Assembly: GCF_036785885.1 (NCBI RefSeq)
Contig: NC_092312.1
Location: 15,952,001 to 16,016,000 of the forward strand
Source: Coffea arabica
Lineage: Eukaryota > Streptophyta > Magnoliopsida > Gentianales > Rubiaceae
DNA: 64,000 nt
Direction: 5' to 3'
In this document: in pieces, positions 2,302-63,600 of the stretch
Layout: each line of letters opens with the position of its first letter
How positions within the stretch are numbered: the first letter of the stretch is position 1
Made by a program: the position numbers and the translations under genes
Notes under the pieces: model-generated
Told to the model about the DNA's origin: nothing
What the model saw: the letters and a program-made list of their open reading frames with translations, nothing else
The model's database searches: none

Positions 2302-3631
2302 CTATATTGGAGCTTGCGGTACCCAATGGCCTAAATCTTTTACATTTGAAAAATAACCCGCAGTGCATTCAAATTCTTCGTAGGCAATTGGTGACGTCGT
2401 CTGGTCATGAGTCTGCAATGAATCAGTCTGGAAATTACTGCATCAGAAAAAGGCCATAGTCCTTAAAGCCAATACAATGCTTTCGATTATGCCTCATATA
2501 CGTAGTCTTGTTTGGCAAGCAAGTTTTTTGTCTAAGTTTATCTGCTACAAGTTTTTTAACAACTTTAATTTTTTTAACAACTTTAGTTTAGTTACAGTAA
2601 TATCAAAAATTTCTTAAAATTTTTAAACTATATACTTCAAAATATCCAAAAATTTACATATTTCAAAAAAAAATTTCTGCAACTTCTACGATAAATTACA
2701 GTAAAATTTTAGACAAATATCTAAAAAATTCACTTGACAAACAGGGCCTTAGTTTTACTAACATTATTGATTTCTACTATTTATTAATGTATTGTTATTA
2801 ACAGTCCTAATGGCTGTACTGCCATGTTTTCTGTATCAGCATCACTCCATTCCACCACCAAGAAAGGATATTATAAAAAAGAAAAAGGAAAAAGAAAAAG
2901 CAAGAGTGCTGCAAACCTTACAGAAACCATAAGGAAAAGATGAAGGTGGATCAAGAAAATCTTCAACATGCCATCCTGGTAATGTCTCCGTGAGGTACTC
3001 TGATATACTACTGGTAGCGACAGAACCTTCTTGGTTCGTCCAGTGACTCTCAATCTCAAAACTAAGATGATTTGATGTTGATTTAGAAGTCTTTGCAGTT
3101 GAGTTGGCCCTGAGATTGTGTGGATCATTAACACTCGAAGCACTCTTGCTTTCAGTTTTAGCAGTTCTTGTGCTGCCAGCAGCGTACGAGACACTTGAGG
3201 ATGATGGAGTTTGGTTTGCGGATGAAGAAGCTGAGAGCCTTACTCCGGTAAGAAGAAACCTGTTATGCTTTTGGGTATGTTGGTTGGCTTTGTGTATTGG
3301 AATATCACATTCCCTGCAAAGAAGGGCTCTATCTTGCTGACAAAACAGCACTGCACGCCTTTCCTGCAATATTACAATCAAAACGATGCTATAAAAGGAA
3401 TGGAACAGTACCTCTTCAGTTCACAAATAGTATAAAAATTTGTACCTGGCAAATGTCACAGATAGGGGAGTCTTTCTGGGGATGGTGTAGAAGAGAGAAA
3501 CGATGATGCTTGCTAGCAAGCTTGTTTGCGTGATGAACTCGATGGTCGCATGCTTGGCATAGAGCTGCTTCATCCGCGGAACAGAAAACGGATGCCTCTT
3601 CTGTATTGCAAACGTCACACTGGATCTTCAT
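2302..3631 (-). CDS. Double B-box zinc finger protein, BBX20/21/22-like
   Basis: Three exons on the minus strand: 3631-3446, 3363-2917 and 2412-2302, all joined in phase 0, giving 247 residues. B-box 1 has Cys5, Cys8, Cys17, Asp20, Cys25, Cys28, His33 and His42. B-box 2 has Cys58, Cys61, Cys70, Asp73, Cys78, Cys81, His86 and His91 and spans the first intron. A Ser/Thr-rich linker follows, then the SISEYLTETLPGWHVEDFLD segment typical of this group, and a short last exon ending GHWVPQAPI. There is no CCT domain, so it belongs to structural group IV. Proteins of this group are nuclear transcription co-regulators in light signalling that act with HY5 and COP1. That role is family knowledge. The small third exon rests on an exact phase fit, a good acceptor (ttcattgcag) and the WVPQAP tail; it is the least certain part. 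Confidence 0.93.
2502..2752. repeat. Short inverted-repeat element (MITE), in BBX intron 2
   Basis: The left end reads GTCTTGTTTGGCAAGCAAG. The right end, read on the other strand, gives GCCCTGTTTGTCAAGTGAA, and both are followed by TTTTTT and GTCTAA-like sequence. About 250 bp with imperfect terminal inverted repeats and no coding capacity suggests a non-autonomous DNA transposon. It lies inside the second intron (2413-2916) of the BBX gene. Ends are approximate. Confidence 0.55.
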
Positions 3632-25120: not shown

Positions 25121-27379
25121 AAATAAATGTACACAAAGAATGAACCATTTCAGATTGCTACTTTTGCTACCAAGCTGGATTGGATCGACCTTTGTTTTGC
25201 TCGTTTGGCAACCGGCAGTAGCATATGCTATTATGCTCCTCCAGTCAAATCACTTAAGTCAGTCTTATTTTTTCTCCGGACAAGGGCCGAAGTATTCTCA
25301 GAAAAATCATTCGGAATGATGTTGCGTAAAATGCACGCGGCGTAACTTTGCATGTATACGGCGTAACTTATTTTCAATAACATGTAATTATAAAATAAAA
25401 TTTTATAAGTCTCACATGTATTATAAAAAATAAGGCACAAAATTTGAACCTTACAATTTTCTTTTTTTGCCAAATTTTGGCCATAACCTGCCAGAGTTCG
25501 TGCCCCTCTTTCTTTTTCTCCCCGCTTCTTTCATTCATTGATCCAGTCTAGAAGGACGAGGGGTCACAGGCGCCAGCAGCGGGTTTTCCGGAGATAGACA
25601 CAAGGGCGTGAAAGCTGTCACTGTCTCACTTGCTTGCAAGCTGAAACTTAGACCGGGAATGGGATCTCAAGTTCCCAATCCCAGTGATAATTCCAATCCC
25701 ACGCCCCCACACCCTTCATTCGACATTGAGTAACTTATTAGTTGTCCCGCAAATTGCTCAATAATTAATTAAAATTTGTGAATTAGATGATTCATGTGTT
25801 CATTTATAATAGTAGTAGTGTATGCTAAGTCACTATCAGTAATTTTTTTTTTATCACTTTGGGCAAATCTATAAAATCAAAATTGTTGAAGTTTGCCTTT
25901 TTTTTTTTTTTTTCTTTTTCTTGAGAGCATTCCCATTTTTCCCGTAGACTGCGGAATTCAAGATGTCTGTGTGCTGGCAAAACTCTCATCAAAGATAATA
26001 ACAACGTTTTTCTCTTTGGTTTCAAGCCTGCTTTCGGGAACAAATTTGCCCTTATGTTGAATGAACATACCTTACTTGGCAACGCGTGAGCAAAATATAG
26101 TGAGATTGTTTGGATGGTGGATGGTTAATGGAAATAGAAGAGACAGTTCAATTCAATGTACTTGCTTGCTCAGGTTGTACTTGCGTTTTATGATCAAAAT
26201 TTTGCTACTCCCTTGACACTCTCATTCCCTATTTTAAGATACTTTTTACAGAGAACTATTGAGAAACATGATGATTGCACTACGTGTTTATTCCACAACA
26301 TTTTGTGTCCTTCATTGCTGTGCTTTTTATGCTTGGGTTGCTTGCTAATCTATTTTTTTTGCTTAAAGACTTTTTCGATTAAGTTTTAATTGACTGTTGA
26401 ACAACTTGTGAAACAACCTATAAGTCACTCAATGAAAGAGACAATAGTAGGCTACAATAAGTAAAATTCTGATTCAGCATTATTTTGTCAACTAAATTCT
26501 TAATCATTTGGTTATTAGTAAGTTTTAATTGACCGTTGAACAAAACGTAAAACAATCTACGAGTCGCTCGATGATGATAGTAATGTTTGCCATACTTATT
26601 AGTAGATTTCCGCAAATTAAATTAGATTAACTGATGGTTCCCTGCTGGCAGACTTGTTAATGCTTAAACCAACGCCTGAAACTCGAGTCTTTTATGCGTT
26701 CCTTCAAAAAAAGAAAAAAAGGAAGGAGGTCTTCTATGCGCCGCTCAAGTATAGCTGCTCTCGTACTGCCGTCAATCCCATTTCACGAAATATATCACTA
26801 GGAAAAAAACAAAATATTTTACTGATTGATAAAGTCAAAAATAACTTTACCAAACCACAAATGTGTTAGTGAGCTTACCCCAAAAACAAAAAAACAAAAT
26901 TGGGAGTTTGTTTGTGTGTTTCGTTTTCCTTTCTTGTCTATGTAGCATATGCTTATTCATTACTTGCTTTGTTTTGTTTAAATGCTAGGAATCAAAATCG
27001 ACTGTAGTACGTGTACGTACATATTTTGGTGGGGAATGGGCTGGGGAGGAGGGGAGGGGGTGGGGTTCCTTTTTTTATCAAAAATAATTCCGTTTAGCAC
27101 AGAGGTGGAGTGAGAGAGAAAAGCTTCGAAGCAGATCCCTTATGTAAGAGCAGTAGTACCACTCCTGATATGAGCCATGAACAACATAACAACTCATCAG
27201 TTCGGAAACCTGCAGGAGCCAAACAGATCTTCCCAAAATTAGCAGCAAAAAAAAGGCACAGACCAAGAATTCTTCTTCTTCTTGGCAGAAGAGATGAAGG
27301 GTGCCGACTTGAGAAAAACTCTTCGCGTTATAGACTCCAGAGAGTGCGGCAAATGATTACTAACTAGTCAATTAGGGGG

Positions 27380-28543
27380 ATGATGAGACAAGACGAATCA
27401 GGTGGAGCAGTGGGAAGCAGCTCATCAACGACAAGGTGCCAAGACTGCGGGAACCAAGCCAAGAAGGACTGCGTTTACTTGAGGTGTAGAACTTGCTGCA
27501 AGACCAGAGGGTTTCAGTGCCAAACTCATGTTAAGAGCACTTGGGTCCCTGTCTCCAAAAGGCGCCCCAGACATCCTCACCAACTAATTTCCTCTACTCC
27601 CCAACACCATCTCTCTGACCCAAACCCTAAAAGATCCAGAGAAGGTACTCATCCCTCCTTTGGTACTTTTACCAGTACACTCTTCGCTCTGCCCTCTTAT
27701 ACACACACTCACACATCTCTTTTACCTTATATTACTATGTGGTATGGGACTAATTAAGTTGAAATACTGGCAGTGGTTTTTATCATCATGTCGAGCAGTA
27801 TATAGTACTTTATGACATTTTAGCTTACTATGAAATATGAAATTGCTACATATGGTACATACCCAATATCCAAAAACCCTAGGTGGCGGCTTCTGTTTGT
27901 AAGAAAATACTACTACTGCTAGTTGCTTGTAGTATTTTGGATGCAACCCCAACAAAAATATATATAGTGTATACATATACACATATATATATATATATAG
28001 AGAGAGAGAGAGTGTGTGTGTGTGTGTGTCTGTGTAATTAAATTAGGTGTAGTTTTAATCTTGAGAGACTACTAGCTAGCTAGCTAGCTAGGTAAAACTA
28101 AACAAGTGCCTAAATTCATTCATTATACTATTCCCTATTCTTTAGTTTGTTTGGATTAGTTTTTATTGTTAATGTTGAGCTCTGTGTTTCTAGAGTTAAT
28201 AGAAGGGAACTTTCCAGCCGAATTGAACGTTCCGGCTGTATTTAGATGTGTTCGAGTTAGCTCCATGGACAATGTGGTGGATCAGTTTGCGTACCAGACG
28301 TCGGTGAACATAGCGGGACATGTCTTCAAGGGTGTGCTTTACGACCAAGGCCCTGACAATCAATACAATATTCCCGGCGAAAGCTCCTCTGGTGGTGGTG
28401 GCGGCGGCGGCGGCAGCTTCCAGCAACCTAATCTCATCACTCAGACCACTTCAACTAGTACACCCTCCCCTCATTCTACTTACCCTAGCCCTTATAGTGC
28501 TTTCATGCCCGGTGCACATTTTTTCCCCTATCCAAAATCTTGA
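27380..28543 (+). CDS. SHI-RELATED SEQUENCE (SRS/STY) transcription factor
   Basis: Two exons, 27380-27644 and 28194-28543, give 204 residues. The RING-like zinc finger of the family is complete: Cys20, Cys23, Cys31, Cys36, Cys39, Cys40 and Cys47, followed by THVKSTWVP. The second exon carries the family's IGGH-type block: FRCVRVSS, then [20 protein letters not shown] at about 122-141. A polyglycine run and a Ser/Thr/Pro tail follow. SHI/STY proteins are nuclear factors that promote auxin synthesis genes and gynoecium, leaf and lateral organ development. The short length, little N-terminal extension and simple two-exon structure resemble SRS3-like members. The acceptor at 28193 (ttctag) was preferred because it keeps a LxxGNFPAE junction like relatives; an in-frame alternative four codons later is possible. 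Confidence 0.93.
27984..28030. repeat. Compound AT/AG/TG microsatellite in SRS intron
   Basis: Three dinucleotide tracts abut without spacer: about seven AT, about seven AG and about nine TG units. They lie in the middle of the 549-bp intron of the SRS gene. A TAGC tetranucleotide run follows at 28072-28091. Confidence 0.9.
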
Positions 28544-34302: not shown

Positions 34303-39534
<5,232 letters not shown>

Positions 39535-41440: not shown

Positions 41441-42659
41441 AGGAGAGGACCGTTATATTGTTATGTCATTTTCAAGGGCATAGCAAACTATCAATGTATT
41501 TTTTTCAAAAAATTATAGTAATTTTTACATATTCCATATAAATAAAACTTATAATGATTCTTACATATTTTCTAATAATGAAAGACTTATAATGGATTTA
41601 AATGAATTTGGGGGCGGGGGTAGGGTGAACAAGCCTTATTAATGTACTTGGCCAAAAAAAAGGGGAATTGACATCACTAATGAACAATGAAGATAAGCCT
41701 GTTGTTTCTCAAGAACCTGAAGTAGATGGCTGTTCTTATGCATCATTTGATTAGAATAGAGACCCCTCCTATCTTTTGTCTCCAAAGTTTCAACAACCCC
41801 GTGTTACCACCAGCCCACCAACCAACAGACTAACTTTTTCTTCAATTTCTATGTGTCTGTCTAGTGTATGTACCTAACTAATTTTTTCATGTTGGAAGAG
41901 GATGACTTCTTAGCAATCCCACTTTCCTACTTACTCGAAGTTTTTTTAGGGGTAGGGGGGCCTTACACGTAATACCCAAATATTAATATCTATCACTCTA
42001 CTGGGATTACGATTTTTTGTATTGTACATTTTCGAAACATACAAAAATTTTGATGCAACATATTCCTTATCAGCCAAAAAGGCCTAAAACCAGCCTTTTG
42101 CTTGAAATAATAATTGGAAGGAACCTCAAAAAAAAAAAACTTCAAATTCACAACTGCATAAGATTAGCAGCATCAAGCTTCGACATCATCCAGTAATAAT
42201 AAGTACTAGATACCCATCTCTGCTGATTGAAAGAATTTGAGACTCAAAATTTCTCAAATATAGCAGTAGCAAGCATCAATACCTGCTGATTACACTAATA
42301 AATAATAGTAGCTAGCATAATATCACTACAGATGTTTTCTAACGTCATTAGTTAGTTTTACAAACCAGTAAATGTCTCCAAATAAAAGCTGCAAACACAG
42401 GTCGAAACAGGGATACCCCAATTTACAAATATCAAATGCACACCTTGCAAATAAAAGTAGCCAAAAGAAGCAGAGAATTCTGCTGCATCAACTCTTCTAG
42501 CAGCTGCTTTCTCTCCTTTTCTTGATGCTGCACCAAATGAAACCCTGCAGAACATTGATGAAACTTTGTTTAACAATTCAACAACTTGAAAAGTAAGTCA
42601 ATTGTGAGACAGAAAATGGAAAGCAAGGCAAGAAGATCACACGATTAGGAAACAAATTA

Positions 42660-43996
42660 TCACGTCCAGAGGTCAACAACAACTTCATCCTCCACATCCA
42701 AATTAGGCTCATTGGCATTCACAATCTTGGATACCATCAAATCATCGAATCCCATATCAATCCTCGAGTGTTGCTTCAACAGTTGTTGCTCCGACTCATC
42801 CTCGCTAACTGAATCATCTCTCATGAACTTCTTCCATAGTTTCTGATCAGCAATTTTTTTCAATTCTGCCATTGAAGTGTTTGCCTCCTGATCATCTTGG
42901 TCCATGCCACAAGCTCCATCATCCGTGGACTTTGTTATGGTTTTAGAGCTTTGTGGTAGAATCACTCTTCTTCTCTTCATGGTCTGAAGGATTTCAAGTT
43001 CTGGTTCTTCCTCCACACGCTGAATTATCTTCTCAACTAAGGCGGGGCTGAATATTTTGGCTAAGACCTTGATCAATACTTTTGACTTAGCCTCCATTAT
43101 TTTCACATTTTTCTTGAAAGTGGCTATGCTACTCTCAAGTTTCCCCATATGATATTTTGATCTTGTGATGTCTTCCTTCAGTGCATTCATGTGATCCTCG
43201 AAAATTTTCAGCTCTGCCTCCATTGAAGGCCTCGTAGCCGTTATGTATTGTTCCCTCGGTCCTCGTCTTTTCCTGATTGTTGGATCTTCATCATTTCGCC
43301 TTCTAATGTTCATTAGCAAATGTTCCTGCCCTCTCTGAAACCATTTATTTTCGTATTCATATTGCCTCAGTCCAATCTTCCTGAATCCCTGTTAAGTTTA
43401 GAAAACAAACAATCAGAAATTAGTGGGAAATGATCCCATTTGTTGTTGAATTCGAGTCTCAACAAGGAATTTATTTGACATTCAAACTGCAAACACAAAG
43501 CATGAGCAAAAGTAGCAAGTATAAGTACAAGAAAAAGGCATTTACCTAGGTTCATGAGTTGTGATAGACATAACAAATTCTTGCAGAAACTTTCTAATTG
43601 TGATAAACAAATTATCTAACGAATACGATATCCATGCTATGAAAAAGGATTTACTCTAAAAGGTATGCAATAATCTGAAATGCATAAACTCACATAGTTG
43701 TTGAGTTGGTAGATGAAGCTTGAGAAATTGCTGTGCTTGAAATATTTTGGTAGAACCTCTGCAGCAAATTTGAGATGGTCCAGGACTATTAGGCTGGTAC
43801 CTTCAGAATTCCAGGAAATCATGTTGTTTGTCTCTGTATCCTCCACCATTTGAAAGGTCTTCATCAAGAAGGGGGGCGGAGTGAAACCACGCACTCCCTT
43901 CATGAATTCCATCTTTTCTGAGGCCTGCTTGAAGGGTAGCGAAGATGGCCTAACAATCCCACCATTTCCGGCTATTTCTCCACCACGTACTTCCAT
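42660..43996 (-). CDS. Divergent class A heat stress transcription factor
   Basis: Two exons, 43996-43694 and 43388-42660, are joined at the family's fixed intron position after QLNNY; 343 residues. The DNA-binding domain (about 40-135) starts PPPFLMKTFQMVEDTETNNMI and ends FQRGQEHLLMNIRRR. The HR-A/B coiled coil (about 157-215) is long with the class A spacing and ends in VLAKIFSPALVEKI. A basic KRRR cluster follows, and an acidic tail ends VVVDLWT, similar to an AHA activation motif. HSFs trimerise and activate heat-shock promoters in the nucleus. Oddities: the invariant arginine of the recognition helix (FVRQLN) is Tyr96, the usual DRWEF is RQYEY, and the usual VVWDP is IVLDH. The frame is intact, but binding to normal heat-shock elements is doubtful. 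The start is uncertain: in-frame ATGs also lie at 44026 and 44098. Confidence 0.85.
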
Positions 43997-45712
43997 TGTA
44001 TCTTGACAAGTTGTTTTATATTCCATGAGGTAGTAGTCAAGACAGTTTTTAAGTTTGAAGATGTTTAGATGGGCTAAACAAACTGCCCCTGCATGCAATG
44101 GCCGTTCTTAAGTAAAATTCCATCCCATCAAAAAGGTTAGTCCCACTCTGGTGAAATCATGACTCTCAATTCACTATTTTTTAATTGCCAACCTTAGCAA
44201 GAACGAGTCTAATACTGTTCTATTATTGCCTTATTCACCAAGAATATATTCCTCTTGCAACTTATTTCGTAAACAAAGCACAATCTGATTTTTATCTCCA
44301 TATTTGAGTGGCCTTGATTGTTCACCTAAGAATCAAAGTGAGGGGGAGGACAACATCATTTTTAAAGCATGTTTCTGATGTCCTTGTACTTCAAAATGAG
44401 TTGTTAATAGAAGCTGCATTAGTGTACTCTAGGCTTATATAGATCAGCAATCTACCTCGTTTATTTTTCTTTCCTTTCCAAGTATTATTCGAAAACAAGC
44501 AACTAGGATGTAGCTACGATTTGTGCCATAACCGGCCTTGTTCCTTAACGTGTCATGTAAATTAACTTTGATGCTATTACAAGATTGAAGCATTTTGGAA
44601 TCTGAGGGGAAACAAATTGAAGAAAAGAAATGAGACATATGATATGAATTTTGATCCATCTAGTCATTATTTAGTTTTAATGATGAATTGGTTGTCTTTT
44701 TCATAATCCAAAGCACATCGATGTACAATTAGGACAAGGAGGCAGGATGATAAGTGAAACTCCTGTTATTTGTTTTGGCAAATGAGTACAACTTCTGTTA
44801 GTGTGACAGAAAAAACTGCGGAAGATTAACAAACATTTCTGTATAGGAAAAGAGATAAAATCATTTATCCGTTTATAGTGATCACCTCTATTCCTAATTG
44901 ATAATGATAGATAATCATAGTTAACTGAAGAATTTGGCCTATTTCCTAGAAAATCTTGTTTCAAAATGTTTATTGCAGTGGGGGACAAACCTTGCATTTG
45001 GAACATTTTCTTGTTTGTCAAATATGAGCTTTTACAACAGTAGTAAAGCAACAAATAGAAACATGAGGATTTCTCAATTGAAAACAACTTAGTTTTTCCA
45101 AAGAGAACATGTGATACTTGCAACTACAGTGCAATACCTCTTTCCGCATAGGATACAAGCGCAAGCTTAGTAGCTTTAACACTTGAAGTAAAGTTCTGGT
45201 TTCATTTACTGGTGTTATTGTGATGAAAAATAAAACCCAGACCAGATTGTAAATAGACTAATGGAAGAAAATTTGTTCCAAATAAAAGGCACTTTGAAAC
45301 CATGTTTAGAGATCATTGCTGAGTTCAAACCTTTGCACTAGCAAGGCATCCAAACAAATTAGAAAGAAATGTAGTTCAATTGATCAAGACATCTTTTACC
45401 TTTAAAGTACACTAAAGTAATACAGGTCTCAAGAAGTCTGACAAAATCAGTAGCGAATAAATTGAAATAGTCTGATGGACAAAAGAAAAAAAAAGAAAAA
45501 AAAAGATAGAATAAAAGTTGGACATCATTTGATATCCATAGAGGGAATTGCTCCTGAATTGGTTTTGCAAGAGCTATGGCAATCCAGTGAAACACAATGA
45601 TGAGGTATCTGACATAGAATAGCAGATAAATGTGATTAAGAGAAACTAATATCTCAATTGTGAAAAGAAATTACAGGTCCAGGTAATACCAGTAAAATCA
45701 ACTCTTGAACTC
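43997..45712. other. Spacer between the two HSF genes
   Basis: The 1.7 kb contains the 5' flank of the downstream HSF gene and the 3' flank of the upstream HSF pseudogene. Open frames such as 44701-45123 (-) show no domain. No clear repeat was seen. Confidence 0.5.
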
Positions 45713-47264
45713 CTAACTCCTGGCTTTGTTACCTATCCCTTTGGCAAACTCATTCCAATCTGTCGGTCCTTCAATCAAATCCTCCAAAGGGATGACATCA
45801 TTTTGCTGAAGCTTTATTCTTTCTTCTTCAGGCACATTCTCACAGCTTATATCATCCATTAGCTGCTTCTCTGGCAATGAGTATGCTGCAGTATAGAAAT
45901 CAGAAACCATGAAAGCAGTACAATCCTCCTCCTCCTGAATAGCAATGCTCAAGTCAACATTTGAAAATATCTTTCCCGTACCCGATTGTGCCCTAAGAGA
46001 GTTTTTCCGGCTTCCATGAGATGTTTCCCCTTTATTTAGGAGCTCTACTGAGCTCTCAATGCTTTCTGCTTTGCAGCTTTTCTTATCAGAAGTTCATGGA
46101 TCGTATGCTTTACCATATTTTGTAGCTTGGATGTAATACACTGAGCTTGTTTCTCAAGGATTTCCATTTCTTTCTCTAAATTTTCTTCCATGTCTTTCAG
46201 CTTCATTGTTTCCACCTTCAACGCATCATGTTCTTGTATTAGACTTTCAAATTTCTTTTGTTCTCCAGACAAACTCAATTGTCCTTCAGTTTCTAATGGC
46301 TTACATAGATGTGCATTTTGCGTTCCTTGAATTCTTCTCTTAATTTTTTTTAGCCAACTCTTTTTCCCTTTTTGAAACCACGCATTCTGAAATTCCAATC
46401 TATCCCAATTGATCTTTTTGAACCCCCAAAATGTTATAACAGCACAAATTAGTTATGTCTCATTTTTTTCTAATTTCAAAATTCTAGTTATTCGTCCCAT
46501 GTTACTAAAGGAAAAATAGAAAGAACCATGATATCAGATCACACAGCAACAACAAAGAGGAGATTTTATAAGATATGCAGAATATGATACCTCACATACA
46601 TTTATACTAATACTGGTAAGCAAGTTCATTTGACATTCAAGTTTTCTTGCTTTGATTTGCAACTTATGCACTACAATGCACATAAGAAGAGCGAGAACTC
46701 TTAATATAACAGTAAAAAGTGCCACTTCAAAAGGAAACAATTCGCAAAAGTCACATACACTAGGCAAAACATTATTAAATAATCAAAGAAGTCTACATGA
46801 AGATGAGAAAATAGGAGACAATGCAAGTGGTATGATTGAATGATACTCACGTATGTGTTGAGTTGGCAAATGAAGCTCGAAAAGTTGTTGTGCCTGAAGT
46901 ATTTTCCAAGAACCTCAGCAGCAAACCTGTGAGGATCCCACACAACGAAGCTGGTGCCACTGGAACTCTAGGATATGATGGAATCTGTCTCAGAGTTCTT
47001 CACTATGTCATAAACCTTGAGCAAGAAGGGAGGTGGGGCTCTCACCCATGAGAATGAAGAGGATGCACCATTAGCATAACCTTGTTTCGCAAAGGGAGTT
47101 GTAGAAACTGCAGCAGCAGCTGTAACAATAGCATTGCTACTACTTTCACTAACATCAGTTTCCATTGGTATTGTTGGATTCATTCTCTCTCCCTCATTCT
47201 CACCGTTTTTCAGCTCATATTTGGTATAGTTTGTTACCTCACTTGTCTCCTGGTTTGCTTCCAT
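45713..47264 (-). pseudogene. Class A heat stress transcription factor pseudogene
   Basis: Same strand and two-exon plan as the HSF gene downstream. Exon 1 (47264-46851) encodes an N-terminal extension and a DNA-binding domain (APPPFLLKVYDIVKNSETDS to FICQLNTY). Exon 2 starts near 46425 with GFKKINWDRLEFQNAWFQKG, then a class A coiled coil and an acidic tail (DWNEFAKGIGNKARS, stop at 45713). Three lesions are visible. A TAG at 46970-46968 replaces the conserved Trp of the DSIISW motif. The intron acceptor reads TTTTGG instead of AG before GGGTTC. One base is missing near 46050, so the coiled-coil frame stops at 46045 while the tail continues in another frame. Either of the first two would abolish a normal product. 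The recognition-helix arginine is Cys here. It is probably a tandem duplicate gone to decay; fragments could still be transcribed. Confidence 0.88.
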
Positions 47265-48029
47265 AATTGGCAAGCAGATTTCTTTATTCTTTTGGAGAAA
47301 AAAAATTACAAATATTTTTTCATAATAAAAACTGTAGCAACTTGGCAACTTGATATTTGCTAATGGTAACCAACCCAATTCTTCAGGATGAACCTCTAAA
47401 AGCTTATGAATCAAAGCTTTTGTTTTGAATGCCAAACATGCACTAGTTACTATACCATTTTCTCATCCCTAATTCTATGTGAAATGTTTCGATACATTAG
47501 AAGATTGTAACTCACCTCATATTCCTTGTACACCACACCATCTTCACTTGTTACTCTATCTTGGTAAAGAAGCAGTGCTATTTGTCCTTTATATTTCGTT
47601 TTTCATCGTGATATTCCAAATGTACAAGGATAATCAGTCCGCTGTTTAGTTGTAAAAGCTACACTCTGTTCAATGATTATATATTAAAGCTCTATTTCTT
47701 CCGTGATCTAAACTGCTAAAAAGTTCTAAAATAGGTACACAAAATTTTACTTTTTTTTAAAATTATTATTTATGAAGTATTATTATTATTATTCTTTTTC
47801 TTTTCGTGGGGATGGGGGGAGGGGTGGTAGGGGTAAGATAGAAGCCCCATTCTTGACATACGGGATAGATTGTATAATTATTTAGTGCTATTGCGTGTAA
47901 CCCAAGAGGACAATATGATTAACCGAATTGAATTGAATAAAAACATTTTGTTTTCTGTTGGTGAACTTAATGCTTAATAGCCGCATTATCCCATTCTTTA
48001 ATGATAGATACTAGTACCCTGGGGGAGAA
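47265..48029. other. 5' flank of the HSF pseudogene, up to the solo LTR
   Basis: This is the former promoter region of the HSF pseudogene. The frame runs upstream of the chosen ATG to 47435, but that stretch does not look like HSF sequence. No heat-shock element array was recognised. A purine-rich G run lies at 47808-47832. The left target duplication of the LTR is at 48025-48029. Confidence 0.5.
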
Positions 48030-51000
48030 TGTGAGAACCTTGAAATATATATAAATATCGATGCATATTTCATTTGCATTTTTAATTCTTTAATAAATTA
48101 TAGCATTATAACTACTTGTTTTTAAATAAGAGTGTAAAGATAATTTTTATGTTTTAAATAATATAATTGTGCCAAAATATTAACATACTTGGTTTCGCTA
48201 TGTTAAATTAATATTTCTTGAGTTAGAGTAATTTTAATGCCTTAATATAAATTTTTCGAAATTTCGATAGCTCATTTTAATCCCTAATAAGGTTAAGTGT
48301 TAATTGGAAACTTAGCATTATAACAAAACCGATATAAGTATACTAAGTATACTTAGGACATAAAAATTTCGATAATTGAACTCTCGTAAGATTAGTACAT
48401 TATTAGGCATTCAAATTACATTTGGGGTAAATTTTGGGAATTAGATTAGAATTGAGGTCTTAGGTGGAAATTCGAAAGAAATGTGAAAAGACTAAAATAG
48501 CCTTCACAATTTCGGAAAATTACCATGCAACCACACAAAACACTTTCGGCCAACCTTAGAAATCACCAAGTCATTTCCATTCTGCCGTAGCACATTTTCC
48601 TTTCACCTCTCACACACTTCACCTCTCAACCGCGAGCCATTCTCACTATTTCTCTCCACTATCTCGCCCCACACCACCCCAAACTCCACTACACATTCCA
48701 ATTCCTGCATTGGACCGAGAGCAAGAGGAAGAGAGAGAGAGAGAGCCGTAGCCTTGGTATCATCGACGAGAAAAGAAAAGAAGGAAATCGCGAGCTGAAT
48801 CTTTTTCTGTTCTGTCCGTGAGCTAGAGGGAAGAAAGGAGAGAAACACTATGTGAGCTTCATTCCTTGCTGCACCCTCAACCAGCTGCAAACCATTCCCT
48901 AACCGCCACACCATCGCAACTGCAACACCACCAGGACCAACCATTCAGCCGCGAGCAAGCCGAGAGAAAGAGAGAAAGAATTTCAGTTCTGTCACGCGTA
49001 TAAGCTTCCAGCTGAGGTAGATTCTGGTTTTAGATTAGCTTACTAGAGGTAGACGAATTTTTTAAGGGCTTGCATGTGTTATCTAAGCACTCAGATGATG
49101 AATTAGGACACCAGAAATGTGATCATGAAGGAAAATTGAAGCTGCCGAGAGCTTGAGTTGGAAATTTCAACTTTTCAGCGGCCAATTTGTGATAATCTGA
49201 GATTAGACATGTGCTTAGCTAACTAAAACTTGGATGATTAAGCTAGTTATGGCCTTGCATGTTGAGTTTATGCGTTCGGATGATGAAATCAAAAGCACGA
49301 GAAAAATCTGGTTTGATGGAAATGGAAATTGCCATGAGTTAATTAGGAAATGCAGCTTTTAATTTGCTTTATTGTGATGATCTGAGCTTGTAATTGTGAT
49401 TAACCAACTAAAAACTAAGTGATTAAGTCTTGCATGAGGATAGTTAGATCGGTTAGGCAAGAAAAATAAAAATGAAATGAAAGCAGCTTGCATGCATGAT
49501 CATCCGAGGCTAGCTGGAAAATTTTCTGGAAAATTTGATGATTATAATTGTTGTTTGAATCTGGTTTTGAACTGGAAATCTTAATTAGCTAGCTAAATGT
49601 TTGCATGACGAATTTGAGTATCTAAAACCATGTTTCAGCCGAGGAAAAATTGGATTTATGAACACCTAAGTGTTGGAAAATTCTTGATAGCCGAGAGGTT
49701 TGAGCAGGAATTTTCAGTTTGTTTTTGGAAATTTTAACTTGTTTCTGGAATTTTTTTTCCGTGGAATATAACGGTTTAGAAATGCATGAGCAATGTGTGC
49801 TTTAAGCCTAGTAAGCCACGTAGATGTGAAACTTCTGATACGATTGATAATTTGATTTTTATTATGACTAAAATGTTGAGATGAAATTCTTGGCATTGGA
49901 ATGGATATTTTGGAATAAAAATTGCTGGAAAATATTTAATCTGTATTTGGTTACAAACAATGAGATTTTGGTTGAAATCTTGGATAAGATAGTGTTGCAA
50001 ATTTTGTCCCTGTGTTCATGTACCTGTTAGTGATTCTAAACAGTTAAATTTTTGGCTAAATTGCTATAAGAAATTATTGTTGGATGCTTGAGGCTAATGA
50101 TTGACGAAACCTTGGTCATTTGTTTTATTTTTGATCAGAAATGAATCTGTTGAAACCTAGGGCTAATGATTGACGAAACCCTAGTGATATTGCTGTTTGA
50201 AATGTGATTTTGCTATATTGGCAAATCTGAGACATAATGTGCTTGTGAATCGGAATCTGAAAAGTTCGTTTTGACCCCGTGAACATGAATATTTTCAAAT
50301 CGGGTTACGTGAATATATTTTACTCTATGTATTAAACTACAAAAATTCATCTTGTACGATCACGTGAGAAATTCGGGATTTGAAATACATTGTCGACTAG
50401 TTATTTCTTCTCCTGGCTTAAATTAGCTTTATTATTTTTAGGAAATGATTTCACTTGTTTTTAAAATCCTAGGTATTATTTTATTTTCTTTTCTTTCCTT
50501 AAAATTTGTCCCTGACTAGTTGTTTTTGAGAAACTCATTACAAACGCGAGATTTTAATAATTTTAAACAAAAGGCGTAGAAAACTTGTTCGATAAGAAAA
50601 CTCATTTGACATAAATAAGTTCTATTTGCTTCTCTAGAAAGAAAGTATTTCTTTTAAAAGAAACCATACGGAATGTTTTATCACTTTTACTAGTTTTAAT
50701 TTCAAAAGAATGGTTGAGTTACTTCGAAAAAATAAACTATTTATATACTAGAGAATCTTTTATATTTATAAACCTAGAACTTGGATAGAAAACTTATAGT
50801 TCTTAAAACTTGGTTTTCTAGGATTTAGCGAGGACGCAGATTTTGATTCCCAGCTTGGCTGGTGACTCCACTCTTGGTGAGCGTCCCTGCTTGTTCTATA
50901 CTTACGTGATTAAAGCGCTTTCTTGACTTGATATGTGACATTTGGGAAGAAAATGGTTTCTGATCCATCGAAGTGAGCGGTGTGTACTTTATCACACTAG

Positions 51001-52063
51001 TCGTTCGAGTGGTGGCTTGTTTGAAATGTTTTCATGAATACTTGCTTGCACTTGTTAATCACTAGGCAGGGGAGTGTACTACACCTTCAGGGTGAAAAGG
51101 ACTCTTACCCTGACCTGGTAATCTTGTGTTTGACGTAACGTCGTTGGATGAATTCCTCAACTAGTCCCTAATCTCGTGTTGGACGTAACGTCGTTGGATG
51201 AATTTCTCGATTAGTCCCTAATCTCGTATTGGACGTAACGTCGTTGGATGAATTTCTCGACCAGTCCCTAAGGTATACTCGAGTATTACCACTATCGTGT
51301 TTGGCGTTCGGGCCCAATAAAGGGGTATGATTGGTGGCCGGAGTTAAGAAAAATAAAAAGATCTACATGGACCTTAGGTAGTGAAAGTTGACGAAGGGTC
51401 GTCTACGGAAAATTTTGATCAAACTCGTGAAGAAATGGCTCCTGAGAGCTCATGTATCCTATCTTGTGCTGTTACACGCTTTCCTATTTGTTTACTTTAG
51501 TTGAAATCAATACGTATTATTTGTTTTATTTGATTGCATGTTTTGGGGCACCACTGAGCTATAACTCACCCCACGTTTATTTGTTTTCCTTAACAGGTCT
51601 TGGTATTTGAGAAATCTGAGCCTGCTTATATTTTTCTTATGAATGTAGTTGAACTTTATGACTTCGCTTAGCGGTTTGTAATGTATTTCGAATCAAACAA
51701 TGTACCTTTGTTTTAGGTTGCCGCTTGAAGCTGGAAAAGTGTAAACCCTAATTCTGATATCTGGTTTGTATGTATATATCTGAGTTGTATGAATTTATAT
51801 GTATTTGGGATTGTACGACTTTATTTCTTGTAAGTTACGCGTGAGGTGTCTAAGAGCCGTCGATTGGCTATCTTCAAATGCTGTTATCTCTGAAGTTAAT
51901 GTGGCCTTAACAATTGGTCTATTTTGGGAGATTCGTTAATGTAATAGTTTAAGTTATTCTTCGGAAGGTTTTGGGCTAGATTGCTTGCGTGAGTCCTGGC
52001 GAGAGTTAGGCAGACGGCCCGCCAACCCTCTGGTTCGCCTTAGGGGGAAGTGGGGTCGCCACA
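48030..52063. mobile_element. Solo LTR, 4.03 kb, of a large LTR retrotransposon
   Basis: It starts TGTGAGAACC and ends GGGGTCGCCACA, so both ends carry the TG...CA termini with TGTG/CACA symmetry. It is flanked by an identical 5-bp target duplication, GAGAA, at 48025-48029 and 52064-52068. Inside there is no gag, protease, integrase or reverse transcriptase frame, no primer-binding site or polypurine tract, and no second LTR, so recombination between two LTRs has probably removed the body. The length is unusual for a plant LTR and fits the very long LTRs of Ty3/Gypsy Tat/Ogre-type elements, but the family is inferred from length alone. It lies 0.77 kb upstream of the HSF pseudogene start. Confidence 0.85.
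51121..51270. repeat. Three 50-bp tandem repeats inside the LTR
   Basis: Three consecutive units with an exact 50-bp period each contain GACGTAACGTCGTTGGATGA (starting at 51132, 51182 and 51232), followed by ATTYCTCRAYYAGTCCCTAA. The core GACGT-A-ACGTC is an inverted repeat with two ACGT cores. The first unit has diverged slightly from the other two. Confidence 0.95.
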
Positions 52064-52068
52064 GAGAA

Positions 52069-52651
52069 ATGTTCCTGAAATAGAACGACATTCCCATCCA
52101 ACTGTTGCAATTTCAACAAATTTATAGATAACGGATGTCTTGACTTTTCAACAACCTTCACCTTCACTAAACTGAGGTTAACTTACGAGAGATGAATCGT
52201 TCTTTTTTGCCCCAATCAATAATCGCAGCCTTCTTTTATCTATATCGCTTATGGTCATTTGAATTCTCTTGCACAGGACCCGAACTTGGAAAAGCAATGC
52301 ATCATGCACGTATCGAGTATAATAAGCAAGCAAAAGCATGAAACCAATTAAACGGAAACAATAACGCCGTTTAGTCAATATATCTCTTGGTAAAAACACC
52401 CGCTTTGTCGCCTTTTGGTTCCTCCGCTGCTTTTGTAACAAACCAAGGAGATTACGTACCCCCTATAAACCAACATTTAGATTTAACACCAAAACTAGCT
52501 GCAAAAATTGTGATCTCTAATGCCTTTGTTCCAAAACAATTGACACCAAGTTGCTTAAGACAATTGGGAGAAAAATTTGAGATAGATTAATTGCAAAATT
52601 TCCGTCAAAGCCTGTAGAGTTAATGAAAGCAGAAAATGAAGCCTTGCTCTC
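52069..52651. other. Spacer between solo LTR and NDB pseudogene
   Basis: It would contain the former 3' flank of the NDB-type gene. Short open frames on both strands (52178-52441 and 52387-52590) have no recognisable motif. Confidence 0.45.
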
Positions 52652-53813
52652 TCAAAGGTTGCTGGAGTCCCTGCCAAAAATGAAACGCCTCATCCAATCT
52701 GATACAACCAATGCCCTTGTACGCCAACTGACTTGCTTGCTGACAATTCAAAGATAGTAACCAAATGAATCATAAGTATAACAGTACGTGGACATGTATC
52801 AATTGCAAGATCTTGCAAGTTCAAAGGACCTTATAGTAGGTGAAGTGAAGAGGAATTGAGTAGCAAACCTTGCATAAACTGAGTACCAGAGCCACTGGGT
52901 GCTTTGCCCAATTGAAACTTAATTTCCTGGAACTTGGGCAGCTGTTTGTTCACCTCTTAAAGGAGCAAATTGTCCAACATGCTGGTACCTGAAACAAGCA
53001 TCAAAGTACATTGCACAAGTAAGAAATCTACAAGCTGCTCATGCAACAACCTTGCAACTTTTCAATAGATTTCTATCTTTGCCAACTCTATACAGACAAA
53101 GTTTTTTCTTCTGATCCAAGTATCATCCTTATATGGTGTTTCTTAAGAATCTCTTATCATCTGGTAGAATAAACTACCTCCAAACAAGCTAACATTCTCA
53201 AATTGCATTCGAAAAGAAGATTTTTTAATCTCCAACTTCATCTTATTCTCCAAATTGCATTAGTAGGTGTCAGAAGAGTGGAACTGTTAATGAGTGGGGA
53301 TACAGAAGATATCTAACTAAAGGTTCCCCTGATACCTGAAAGGGCGAAAACGATGGCGTCCTTCTCCCCTAAACCTAAGAGGACCTTCTGGATTTGTCTC
53401 AACCTCCTTCATCCGATTGAAACAATAGGCAAGATAGACACCTTGCTGAGATGCAACCTGTAAAAATATCCTAAAAAAATATTGCTTCCTGTAACTCGCA
53501 TGATACGATTGACCAAATTTGGACATCATAGTTAACAAACCTGGGCAGTTGTAAGAAGATTCTTCATCTGAGAATCAACTTGGGAGATAGCCGATTTAAA
53601 TTCTTCAATGTTCACCTCAACGGATTCTTTTACATCATCCCCTTTTGAATCTTTCAAAAGATCAACTAGACTATGCATCTGCTTATTTTTCAAACATAGT
53701 TCTAGCGGAGGATATCTCTCACATATGTCATCAAGGACTTTTTGAAATTCTTTGACCGTAAGAGCACCAGAGTTGTCCTTGTCCGTCTTTTGAAATATGG
53801 CTGCAACATCCTC
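52652..53813 (-). pseudogene. Truncated external NADH dehydrogenase (NDB type) pseudogene
   Basis: Four exons on the minus strand: 53813-53541, 53457-53336, 52988-52869 and 52739-52652, with intact acceptors, donors and phases. They encode the C-terminal ~200 residues of the type II NAD(P)H dehydrogenase of the outer face of the inner mitochondrial membrane. The EF-hand loop DKDNSGALTVKE is complete, followed by CERYPPLE, LAYCFNRMKEVETNPEGPLR, FAPLRGEQTAAQ, WLWYSVYAS and the terminal RRFIFGRDSS. Family members are about 580 residues. The N-terminal part with both dinucleotide-binding folds is absent: no upstream exon is seen before an inverted-repeat element at 54.0 kb and the V-ATPase gene at 54.7 kb. 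A TAA at 52921-52919 replaces the conserved Trp in the PGDWVSIG motif. It is therefore a truncated and broken remnant, although splicing signals are still clean. Confidence 0.9.
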
Positions 53814-54696
53814 CTGATGAATTGGCCAAAAGACACTGATAGCAAAAAGACTAAGAGAGTTCTCATCTATCTTTTAAAAATAGGTGAGACGTAGGTTGTA
53901 TTCATTTGTTCGATAAATACAAATACTAATTTGGAAATGGTGACAAATGTATCCGTAAAACACTAAATATCGGATCGTAAGCCAAATTCAATAAGTTTAA
54001 CAGATTAGTGGGTTAATTCCACATTCCACCCCTTTAACCATACCTAAATTTTCATTTTAGACCTTAAACTTAAAAAATGGGACACCTTAATCCCTCGCTT
54101 ATAAAATTTATCCCACTTTTTTTTATTCTGAAATTTGTCCTACTTAAGTAATATTATTAAAAAAGTGAGACAGATTTTATATTTACAAAGGGTGTATATT
54201 AGGGATTAAATTGGGATATAATTTTATACTTTAGGAATTAAAATGGACGAGTTCTATATTTTAGGGATTTAGGTACAGTAAATTTTATAATTTAGGGACT
54301 AAATCATCCCATTTTGAAGTTTAGGAATCAAAGTGAAAATTCGGTTATAGTTAAAGGGTGCACAGAATTAGCCAGCAAAAGTTTAGGGCGTGTTCTCACA
54401 AGAGCGAAAGATCAGTGGGCATCTTATAATAACAATAATGAAAGATTAGATAGATACTAATGCAATAATCTGAATATTGGAATGCAATAAATGAAGTGGA
54501 AGATTACTGAAGGCGGTAAAGAAATACTGTGATTGAATCTGTTACAGCTCCGTTACGACGGAGAGAGAAAGAAAGATAAGTGGGGGACTGCATACATATA
54601 GAGTCGGGGTGTAATTTTATGACAAGGACTCGGGGAAACAGAGGGACAGGAAGATAGAGAGAGACAGAGAGAAGAATCGGGAAGGGGGTGTAGAAG
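53814..54696. other. Spacer between NDB pseudogene and V-ATPase gene
   Basis: It contains an inverted-repeat element (54011-54373) and, on its right, the promoter and leader of the V-ATPase gene with a purine-rich GAGA stretch (54640-54690). No further NDB exon was recognised on the minus strand. Confidence 0.6.
54011..54373. mobile_element. MITE with about 80-bp inverted repeats
   Basis: The left arm starts GGTTAATTCCACATTCCACC, then CCTTTAACCATA and AATTTTCATTTT. The right arm on the opposite strand starts GGCTAATTCTGTGCACCCTT, then TAACTATAACC and GAATTTTCACTTT. Both arms then reach AAAATGGGA. The interior repeats the theme of TTTAGGGATTAAA-like phrases. There is no coding capacity. It separates the truncated NDB pseudogene from the V-ATPase gene. 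Confidence 0.75.
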
Positions 54697-60600: not shown

Positions 60601-63600
60601 TGAGTAATTTTCTTTCATCCCAGCCTTTCAAAGGTCCCTTTTACGTCCTTGTAAAATGAAATATTTGTTAGTTATGCTTTAAGAAATGGCACAATAATAA
60701 TAAAACAAAATATGACAGACTAAAGAGGGAACAAAGTGTCGGTAGATAGAAGAGTACGAGATTTAAATGAAGAATTTGTTAAAATTGGTTTATCTGTATG
60801 ATATTACCCACCTCTTCAAAATTGTGAAGGCTTCAGGCATTGGCTGAATCTACCCTTGGTTAAGGTAAATAAAAGAAAGGGTCCATATTTTTGGACATTC
60901 ACCTGAGCAAAGTTCTTTGAGGGAAAAAAAATAGATACTCTGTATGTCTAGTTTGCTTCCATACCCTTGAGATGTGTCCATTAGTTGCTTCTGTATCTGC
61001 CCCGTCTATGCATAAATCTTTTAAGCCTTATATATTATTCTTTCATTTTTTAAAATGAATATTCCCTTGTCAGTCTCCATTTTTTCTATCTATTGGATAT
61101 GAGCTGAGATATTCGCTGCTTTATTTGCCTTTTCCCAGTGTGGCTAAGTATCAAGAAGCAAATCCTGGGGTATTCACCATTGTCACATTCCCCTTCCTTT
61201 TTGCGGTCATGTTTGGTGACTGGGGTCATGGTATATGCCTGTTGGTTACAACATTATTCTTAATAATTCGGGAGCGGAAATACTCCAGTGAGGTAAGCAT
61301 TTTCCTGGTTGTGCAAGGCCCACCGGCTAATGTTCAAGTAACATCTTTAATAATATAATGGTTTCTTTTGGAACTTGAGTTTCTTAGTCCTGCATTTATA
61401 TTTAAATTTGGGTATGACCACATTACTGGTTGTGGTTAAGCTGAAAAGGTGGCCTTTCCTTGCTTCGTGGAGCACAGAAAACTGTACCTTAAACTTTAAA
61501 CTAACATTTTGTGAGGGCTAGCTAATACTGGCTTGTGAATGTATTTTTGCTGCTTGTGAAATAGATAGAACATTCTTTCTCTAGTTTCTTATACTTTTGG
61601 TATATGAAGCTATTTATGACAAAAGTGAGGCTGCTGGGTCCCCATGTTGGCTTAAATGCATGTTTTTGAAAGAAATAATGATGACCCAAAGTGTGGAGGC
61701 TGCTGATGTTGTTGTTCTTAGACCTCTATTATCATACCTGTTTTCTTCTCATCTTGAAAACCATTAGTGGATTCTGGCCCTTGTAGATAGCATTGTCATA
61801 GCAACTGGTGCTGAGCTTTTCCAAGATCTGCTGGTTGACTCTTAAGCTCGTCTCTTGACCCAAGTGTTGCAACCTCTCTTTGGGGCTTGCATGTGACTGC
61901 ATTTTTTTTCCCTAGGGAGAATCTAAATTGTTTGCATGAACATGCATTGCTAATGCTACTTGACTGCTGCTTCTTCTCTCTCTTTTTCTAAAACAAAACT
62001 TTACCTTGACCACATGAAAACACCGCAGAAAACAAGAAGAAAATGGTTTTTGCTCAGTGTTTACCCAGCATATGTTTGAACAGATCTTCGATAACTGTGG
62101 TTGTTTCAATTAAAGGAACTTTCCTTGTATATGCATATAGGTTAGTATAGTAAAAGTGTTGGTAGTTAAATTGATCAAGTATCCCTCAAAAAAATCAAAA
62201 CATCCATGGCATGGATGTTTTTCCCCTGAAGTAAGTAGCTGCAATATTTTAGATGGTGAGATATGTTAGAATCTAGCTTTTTGATGTGCAACTATGATTG
62301 CATTTTTCATAGGAATTATCCTTTTCTTGTGAATGGGCTCCCACGCTTCTGGGAGATTAAAATATCCAGTATCCATCTGGTCATCCTGTAGAAAATTCTT
62401 CTGACTTTTCACATTTGCACATCCTAATAGCAGCAGTCTATTTTTCTGTCCAAACTCTTTGTAACTCAACTAAAATTCGTGAGCATTAATATTCCTGTTG
62501 TGTGTTTCTAGGGAAGTATCATAGCCATTTTTGATCCTCACTTTCAAGTTGCTGTTTGTTTTTCTATAAGGTTATTAATGTTCTTGATTGATCCTCACTT
62601 TGAATCTGTTTGAATCTTGTCACTGCAGAAGCTTGGAGACATCATGGAAATGACTTTTGGTGGGCGTTATGTGATTCTGCTAATGTCACTTTTCTCAATC
62701 TACACGGGGCTTATCTACAACGAGTTCTTCTCTCTCCCATTTGAATTATTTGGTCGCTCAGCATATGCATGCCGTGATGCTTCTTGCAGGTATTTAAGTT
62801 GTTTGGATACCTTGTTGGTATTTTTTGTAAGTTGCAGTCTCTCAAAATGTTAATTTGCTTCTTTGCAGTGAAGCTACTACAGTAGGCTTAATCAAGGCAC
62901 GCGATACTTATCCATTTGGTGTGGATCCTGCATGGCATGGTACACGTAGTGAATTGCCATTCCTAAATTCATTAAAGATGAAAATGTCTATACTTATTGG
63001 TGTGGCCCAAATGAACCTTGGGATCATATTGAGCTTCTGCAATGCTTTATTCTTCAGGAACAGCATTAATGTATGGTAAGTCTTATAAGATAATGTTGGT
63101 CCTCATATCGTCATCTCCAATATCTTTAGGCTTGTCATTGAGCACCTGAATGTTGCTTAGTTGCTTCTTGTTATAACTGTTATTTTCCCATACTTGCAAA
63201 CTGACTCTGGAATTTCAGGTGCCAGTTTGTTCCTGAGATGATATTTTTGAATGGCCTCTTTGGCTACCTTTCCATCCTGATTATTATAAAGTGGTGGACT
63301 GGTTCACAAGCTGATCTGTATCATGTCATGATATACATGTTCCTTGGTCCTACGGATGATCTGGGTGAAAATCAGCTTTTCCCTGGCCAGAAGACAACTC
63401 AGGTTTAGTACTCATTTTAGCACAATTATGTGTTTCAATGACTTCTTCTCGTCTTTAGTTCAAATATACCAAAAACTCTTGCAACATATACTCTGTCTAT
63501 GGCTGATTAACTAATTTTTTGCTTCTTGTCCAGATTGTACTGGTGCTGCTGGCTCTTATTTCTGTTCCATGGATGCTGATTCCCAAGCCTTTCCTTCTGA

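Follow-up and report, generated by a model that had tools for sequence, protein, structure and literature searches.

Canonical heat-shock factors (HSFs) read the GAA core of heat-shock elements (HSEs) through an arginine of the recognition helix, and a 64,000-nucleotide stretch of Coffea arabica DNA (contig NC_092312.1, positions 15,952,001 to 16,016,000; below, the window) carries two tandem HSF copies in which this arginine is replaced. By tree and alignment, this tandem pair represents one copy of an old class A-like HSF subfamily that has been amplified, stands beside an HSFA9-like gene, and is devoid of the base-reading Arg. Copy B, with Tyr at this position, is an open gene, and copy A, of the Cys type, is dead; six open Cys-type copies lie at other places in the genome (Table 1).

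The available text of PMC8379338 describes Arg63/71 as forming a bidentate contact to the G of GAA. This Arg-guanine contact is described in the accessible part of PMC12251660 as the conserved core of HSE reading in yeast, fly, human, and maize HSFs; RQLN is found there in all species of the alignment, and the variants ZmHsf17 R105A and ZmHsf05 R93A show abolished HSE binding in electrophoretic mobility shift assays. These laboratory mutants have lost the same position as the coffee copies, yet each carries a single engineered Ala, in contrast to a natural Tyr/Cys lineage with further changes in the DNA-binding domain (DBD).

The recognition helix of copy B reads NFSSFIYQLNNY. The RQLN Arg of canonical HSE readers is Tyr in copy B and Cys in copy A, and the codons confirm both substitutions as claimed in an earlier, sequence-only reading of this DNA; the Tyr is residue 96, by arithmetic, if counted from the second Met (residue 11). 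Copy B is modeled as a two-exon HSF gene, open throughout its 353 codons, with a Pfam match to PF00447 in exon 1 (E 2.6e-19). The part of exon 1 of copy A downstream of the TAG codon also matches PF00447 (E 3.7e-12, Pfam). Copy A is a pseudogene, as indicated by the stop codon in the DBD, the GG in place of the splice acceptor, and the gaps in exon 2; therefore, only one live-looking gene remains of the two HSF copies that had been described. In both copies, the DBD is interrupted by an intron after QLN-T/N-Y, with the donors TAT/GT and TAC/GT. The two copies share 51 of 94 DBD residues, with a dN of 0.32 and a dS of 1.6, which is close to saturation and thus indicates an old pair. A search for HSEs with four patterns gives none upstream of copy B (44027-45700) and two two-unit matches upstream of copy A (47265-49300).

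A scan of the genome (1,197,963,845 bases in 131 contigs) yields at least 64 PF00447 matches. The residue at the Arg position of these 64 is Arg in 36, Tyr in 13, Cys in 12, Asn in 2, and Ser in 1, with one Cys and both Asn calls made by eye. The DBD tree comprises all 64 sequences (JTT+G4, 1,000 ultrafast bootstraps, midpoint-rooted display, stops as X), 10 of which, all with Arg, are represented by exon 1 only since exon 2 is cut or was not located. All 28 Arg-less sequences, together with the Arg-bearing C6:38029772, form one clade with a bootstrap of 98, and the HSFA9-like Arg pair C11:10491716/C12:9338803 is its sister (bootstrap of 90). With 28 of the 64 matches lacking Arg and falling into one clade, the loss at this locus is not due to chance. 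A codon tree of 26 sequences supports the clade at 100 and the sister relationship at 99 and separates the Cys type from the Tyr type plus older Tyr/Ser copies. This tree and the branch models below include the 15 open Arg-less loci and 11 of the 36 Arg loci; 13 broken or truncated Arg-less loci, C6:38029772, and 24 other Arg loci were dropped. Open genes with both GT and AG splice sites account for 6 of 12 Cys, 8 of 13 Tyr, the single Ser, and neither of the 2 Asn loci, and C3:68512976, in which the splice sites are present and the tail is shortened, is counted as broken or truncated. The Arg-less clade proposed in the sequence-only reading is therefore present, with the Cys and Tyr types together in it. 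The nearest relatives of the tandem pair lack Arg, whereas the clade has an Arg-bearing sister and includes the nested Arg copy.

The codon at the Arg position is CGT in the sister and TGC/TGT, TAC/TAT, TCT, or AAC within the clade. We infer a single loss of Arg at the base of the clade. The path from CGC via TGC to TAC suggested earlier is compatible with these codons in the form CGY-TGY-TAY, as read from extant codons rather than from an ancestral sequence. The Arg (CGT) of C6:38029772 is interpreted as a reversion within a broken gene copy because of its nested position beside the Ser copy (77) and the missing AG acceptor; a retained ancestral Arg would be the alternative. The two Asn sequences, C9:49735241 and C10:44878723, are broken Arg-less copies with FVNQLDNY.

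The sister gene, which is the nearest Arg-bearing relative in this genome, keeps Arg as well as SFVRQLN. From its TYRFRK motif and its tail, we take it to be HSFA9, a seed-specific class A HSF. A VKEE site at K31 lends this label weak support, K31 being among the three positions that one source mentions jointly for A9 HSFs of three origins, including Coffea arabica. The Arg-less clade is placed beside and not within the HSFA9-like pair in both trees, which hold the HSFs of this genome only. By eye, the order of tail motifs in the sister is similar to that of the Arg-less genes, in which candidates for the aromatic, hydrophobic, and acidic (AHA) motif, likewise picked by eye, are LWKKFM.DD in copy B and LEKQLMDD and D/NWNEFAK in the open Cys copies.

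The expectation that the clade is under purifying selection holds for the DBD after the loss. Branch models were fitted to 90 DBD codons of the 26 sequences with at most 45 to 60 optimizer iterations, convergence being unchecked; the GY94 code written for this purpose and IQ-TREE agree on the Tyr set (omega of 0.664 and 0.665, log likelihood of -2067.60 in both). All p-values presuppose a fixed tree without gene conversion and are uncorrected for the number of tests. The DBD omega is 0.039 for canonical Arg HSFs and 0.226 for the Arg-less genes (p 3e-8 versus one ratio). On the deep branches after the loss, with the stem kept separate, it is 0.119, and an omega of 1 is rejected (twice the log-likelihood difference, 69; p 9e-17). 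Neutrality is also rejected for the Cys crown (0.096, p 4e-8), and the Tyr crown shows 0.39 (stem separate). Fits within types (six Cys and six recent Tyr copies) give whole-gene values of 0.663 for Cys (p 0.016) and 0.665 for Tyr (p 0.04). Pairwise whole-gene values, from seven Cys, eight recent Tyr, and three older copies, range from 0.38 to 0.67 for Cys and from 0.27 to 0.93 for Tyr. Divided by region, the six Cys copies show an omega of 0.54 for the N terminus (p 0.05), 0.116 for the DBD (p 5e-7), 1.7 for the linker plus oligomerization domain (OD) (p 0.21), and 0.98 for the tail; in the six Tyr copies, the N terminus (0.46, p 0.08), linker plus OD (0.66, p 0.20), and tail (1.0) were fitted likewise. 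The Arg-less genes are thus genuinely constrained, though less tightly than canonical HSFs, and the Cys type carries this constraint mainly in the DBD.

The seven DNA contact residues modeled for ZmHsf17 in the accessible part of PMC12251660 were mapped by a constant offset, with agreement of the letters in 11 of 11 Arg HSFs. The six contacts other than Arg (N, S, N, Y, K, and R) are kept in all 15 open Arg-less genes. The 11 Arg sequences have 40 invariant columns, of which all 15 Arg-less genes retain 23; given 23 of the 39 non-Arg columns kept, the chance of retaining all six contacts is ∼0.03 (calculated by hand). Judged by the retained residues and the purifying selection, the domain is probably still folded, with its backbone contacts kept. 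The Arg-guanine contact reading GAA, established for canonical HSFs, would not be possible in the Arg-less proteins. These would act through the DBD, with Tyr or Cys facing the major groove, and would not be ordinary HSE activators. The genes may represent an old HSFA9-related offshoot whose DBD acts without canonical GAA reading, with weak or altered DNA recognition, an explanation to which we give about an even chance. That canonical HSE binding persists through the other contact residues and the avidity of the trimer is highly improbable; the six intact contacts speak for it, but the single Arg-to-Ala exchange suffices to abolish binding in both maize HSFs (PMC12251660, accessible part). 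With a natural lineage that has lost Arg and has the rest of the domain under selection, it can readily be tested whether HSF domains can be given a new target or can function without GAA reading. Should the sister be HSFA9, the canonical factor related to this lineage would be one associated with seed longevity.

Several results weigh against such an offshoot acting through its DBD. The older Tyr/Ser copies show a DBD omega of 2.3, with few changes, and pairwise whole-gene values of 1.0 to 1.1. The DBD omega of the six Tyr copies (0.51, p 0.13; 0.50, p 0.14 in a separate fit) is not separable from 1, and the stem of the clade is compatible with a value of 1 as well as with 0.12 (p 0.65 and 0.14). 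The DBD constraint could serve protein contacts and not DNA. Furthermore, of the 28 Arg-less loci, 13 are broken or truncated. We considered that the stem might have been under positive selection but dropped this idea: the fitted omega reached its upper limit there, yet the two lower values fit too.

The same broken loci favor the view of a relaxed duplicate family in slow decay, amplified by segmental duplication and heading for loss. Such a course agrees with the DBD omega of the Arg-less genes, which exceeds that of canonical HSFs by factors from 3.5 (deep) to 10 (crown), and with the tail values near 1 in both types and the weak RNA sequencing signal of comparable potato genes in the available text of PMC4836240. 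Rejection of neutrality on the deep and the recent Cys branches argues against decay, together with the 15 of 28 loci that remain open and have both splice sites (GT and AG) and the occurrence of Cys and Tyr versions in potato as well (PMC4836240); we consider this outcome unlikely. A further view makes the coiled coil the working part: as dominant-negative partners, the Arg-less proteins would form trimers with class A HSFs such as HSFA9 and lower or divert the HSE binding of the latter. Over an ungapped 40-residue stretch of the HR-A/B region, aligned from the common LK start, the Cys type agrees in hydrophobic pattern with the HSFA9-like sister at 31 places and the Tyr and older Tyr types at 28 each, scores reached by 5, 131, and 108 of 10,000 shuffles, respectively. 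The induction of the potato genes by heat in quantitative reverse transcription-PCR (PMC4836240, available text) points in the same direction. In contrast, the omega of the linker plus OD is not significantly below 1 in either type while the Cys DBD stands at 0.12, MAFFT places an 8-residue gap near the end of the HR-A/B stretch in the Cys and older types, and the potato authors term the OD of their three genes incomplete (PMC4836240). The dominant-negative view is less favored because constraint is weaker on the linker and coiled coil than on the DBD, and we regard it as possible though doubtful. Trimerization with normal HSFs, as proposed in the sequence-only reading, is thereby weakened for the Cys type. 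Of the class A coiled coils and acidic tails described there as kept, the hydrophobic resemblance to the sister stands, whereas significant constraint on linker plus OD or tail is not seen in the recent copies.

The substitution itself is already published for three potato genes. StHsf015, StHsf016, and StHsf017, of the "A8*" branch (PMC4836240), have CQLN, YQLN, and YQLN, respectively, in place of RQLN and thus show the same two residues as the coffee copies. The available text of that study reports them as unique to potato and near A8, with an OD called incomplete, and places them on chromosomes 2, 11, and 2 without listing them as tandem. The coffee clade differs from this trio as the sister of an HSFA9-like gene with 28 loci and a DBD tested for constraint. 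The A8 label was not followed here, as the tree, which holds no A8 or A9 reference sequences, sets the clade beside the HSFA9-like gene. The potato genes enter this comparison by description only, and we infer orthology with the coffee clade on that footing. Coffea is a lamiid asterid, and potato is a lamiid as well. It is conceivable, if rather speculative, that an HSF subfamily present throughout the lamiids has Tyr or Cys in exchange for the base-reading Arg and now recognizes another DNA sequence, and that tandem Cys and Tyr partners act as a pair. No further HSF paper with CQLN or YQLN was recognized in literature searches with the helix strings, a weak negative since most subscription journals lie outside such searches. 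A survey of 111 plants takes in Coffea canephora and makes no comment on this residue in the accessible part of PMC9123238.

Table 1. Coordinates within the window of the two HSF copies and of the duplicated unit
Feature	Position	Strand	Remarks
Copy B exon 1	43694..44026	minus	N terminus and first part of HSF DBD; gene model, TAT/GTGAGT donor
Copy B exon 2	42660..43388	minus	CAG/GG acceptor; end of DBD, linker, HR-A/B region, acidic tail with LW..M.DD motif
Copy B Tyr codon TAC at recognition-helix Arg position	43709..43711	minus	Residue 106 from first ATG
Copy A exon 1	46851..47264	minus	Begins at ATG 47264
Copy A Cys codon TGC at recognition-helix Arg position	46866..46868	minus	
Copy A in-frame TAG within DBD	46968..46970	minus	Trp at same place in 9/11 other Cys-type copies
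Copy A splice acceptor place, GG	46426..46427	minus	AG in 8/11 other Cys-type copies
Copy A exon 2	45713..46425	minus	5-, 35-, and 6-nt gaps versus three relatives
Duplicated unit carrying Cys-Tyr pair	41644..48029		Block comparison with eight other pairs
Solo long terminal repeat (LTR)-like insertion	48030..52063		TG...CA ends, 5-bp duplication GAGAA; splits duplicated unit
Duplicated unit, continued	52064..53895		Present in L064, one other copy examined there; 95% identical stretch

The Cys-Tyr pair is found at nine loci in the genome with constant order and orientation, and both members are open at three of them. The unit in the window, from its left edge to ∼48029, aligns as one block of 91 to 94% identity with seven of the eight other pairs; the eighth (C11:20.40) shows two blocks of 94.1 and 90.5% identity with 1.8 kb between them. 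The left edge lies at 41644 in four loci and at 41700-41705 in three, and the match of C4:16.15 extends further left. The 730 bases upstream of the pair, ending at 48029, occur in full length at seven of the other eight pairs, whereas C15:6.49 has 430 bases of them. An extra match to this upstream part lies at C15:6500494-6501174 (85% identity), 8 kb from the C15 pair. Copy-to-copy dS among the Arg-less duplicates is 0.04 to 0.13, compared with 0.007 to 0.045 for six pairs of Arg HSFs located on paired contigs. Amplification probably predates the split of the subgenomes, as the copy-to-copy values exceed nearly all of those between paired contigs.

The solo-LTR-like insertion is not present in the compared relative L064, and related DNA occurs at many other places in the genome. 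Capture of the HSF pair by a retrotransposon was rejected since the polypurine/LTR-like edge at 48029/48030 belongs to this later insertion. The part of the unit beyond it contains an EF-hand exon, external NADH dehydrogenase-like by eye. The microsynteny of NPR1 and HSFA9 described in the available text of PMC2579331 was not used, as no NPR1 was recognized by eye among the open reading frames listed for 33 to 64 kb.

No relatives were found in the viral contigs scanned. The GTDB contigs contain one (L001:1501-1641), an Arg-bearing HSF domain with an in-frame stop on a contig of a Desulfosporosinus metagenome-assembled genome, which is probably eukaryotic contamination, perhaps with a ciliate code. 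The exons C22:52292421 and C22:52303587, two Arg HSF exons 11 kb apart with an identical translated DBD exon 1, probably represent a recent canonical tandem duplicate. Near the HSF pair, MCM N-terminal and P-loop exons at 34427-38425 on the plus strand suggest, by eye, an MCM4-like gene. The window further contains a B-box zinc finger exon (2842-3420), DUF702 (SHI/STY-type) exons (27368-28543), and exons of V-ATPase subunit a (61059-62853).

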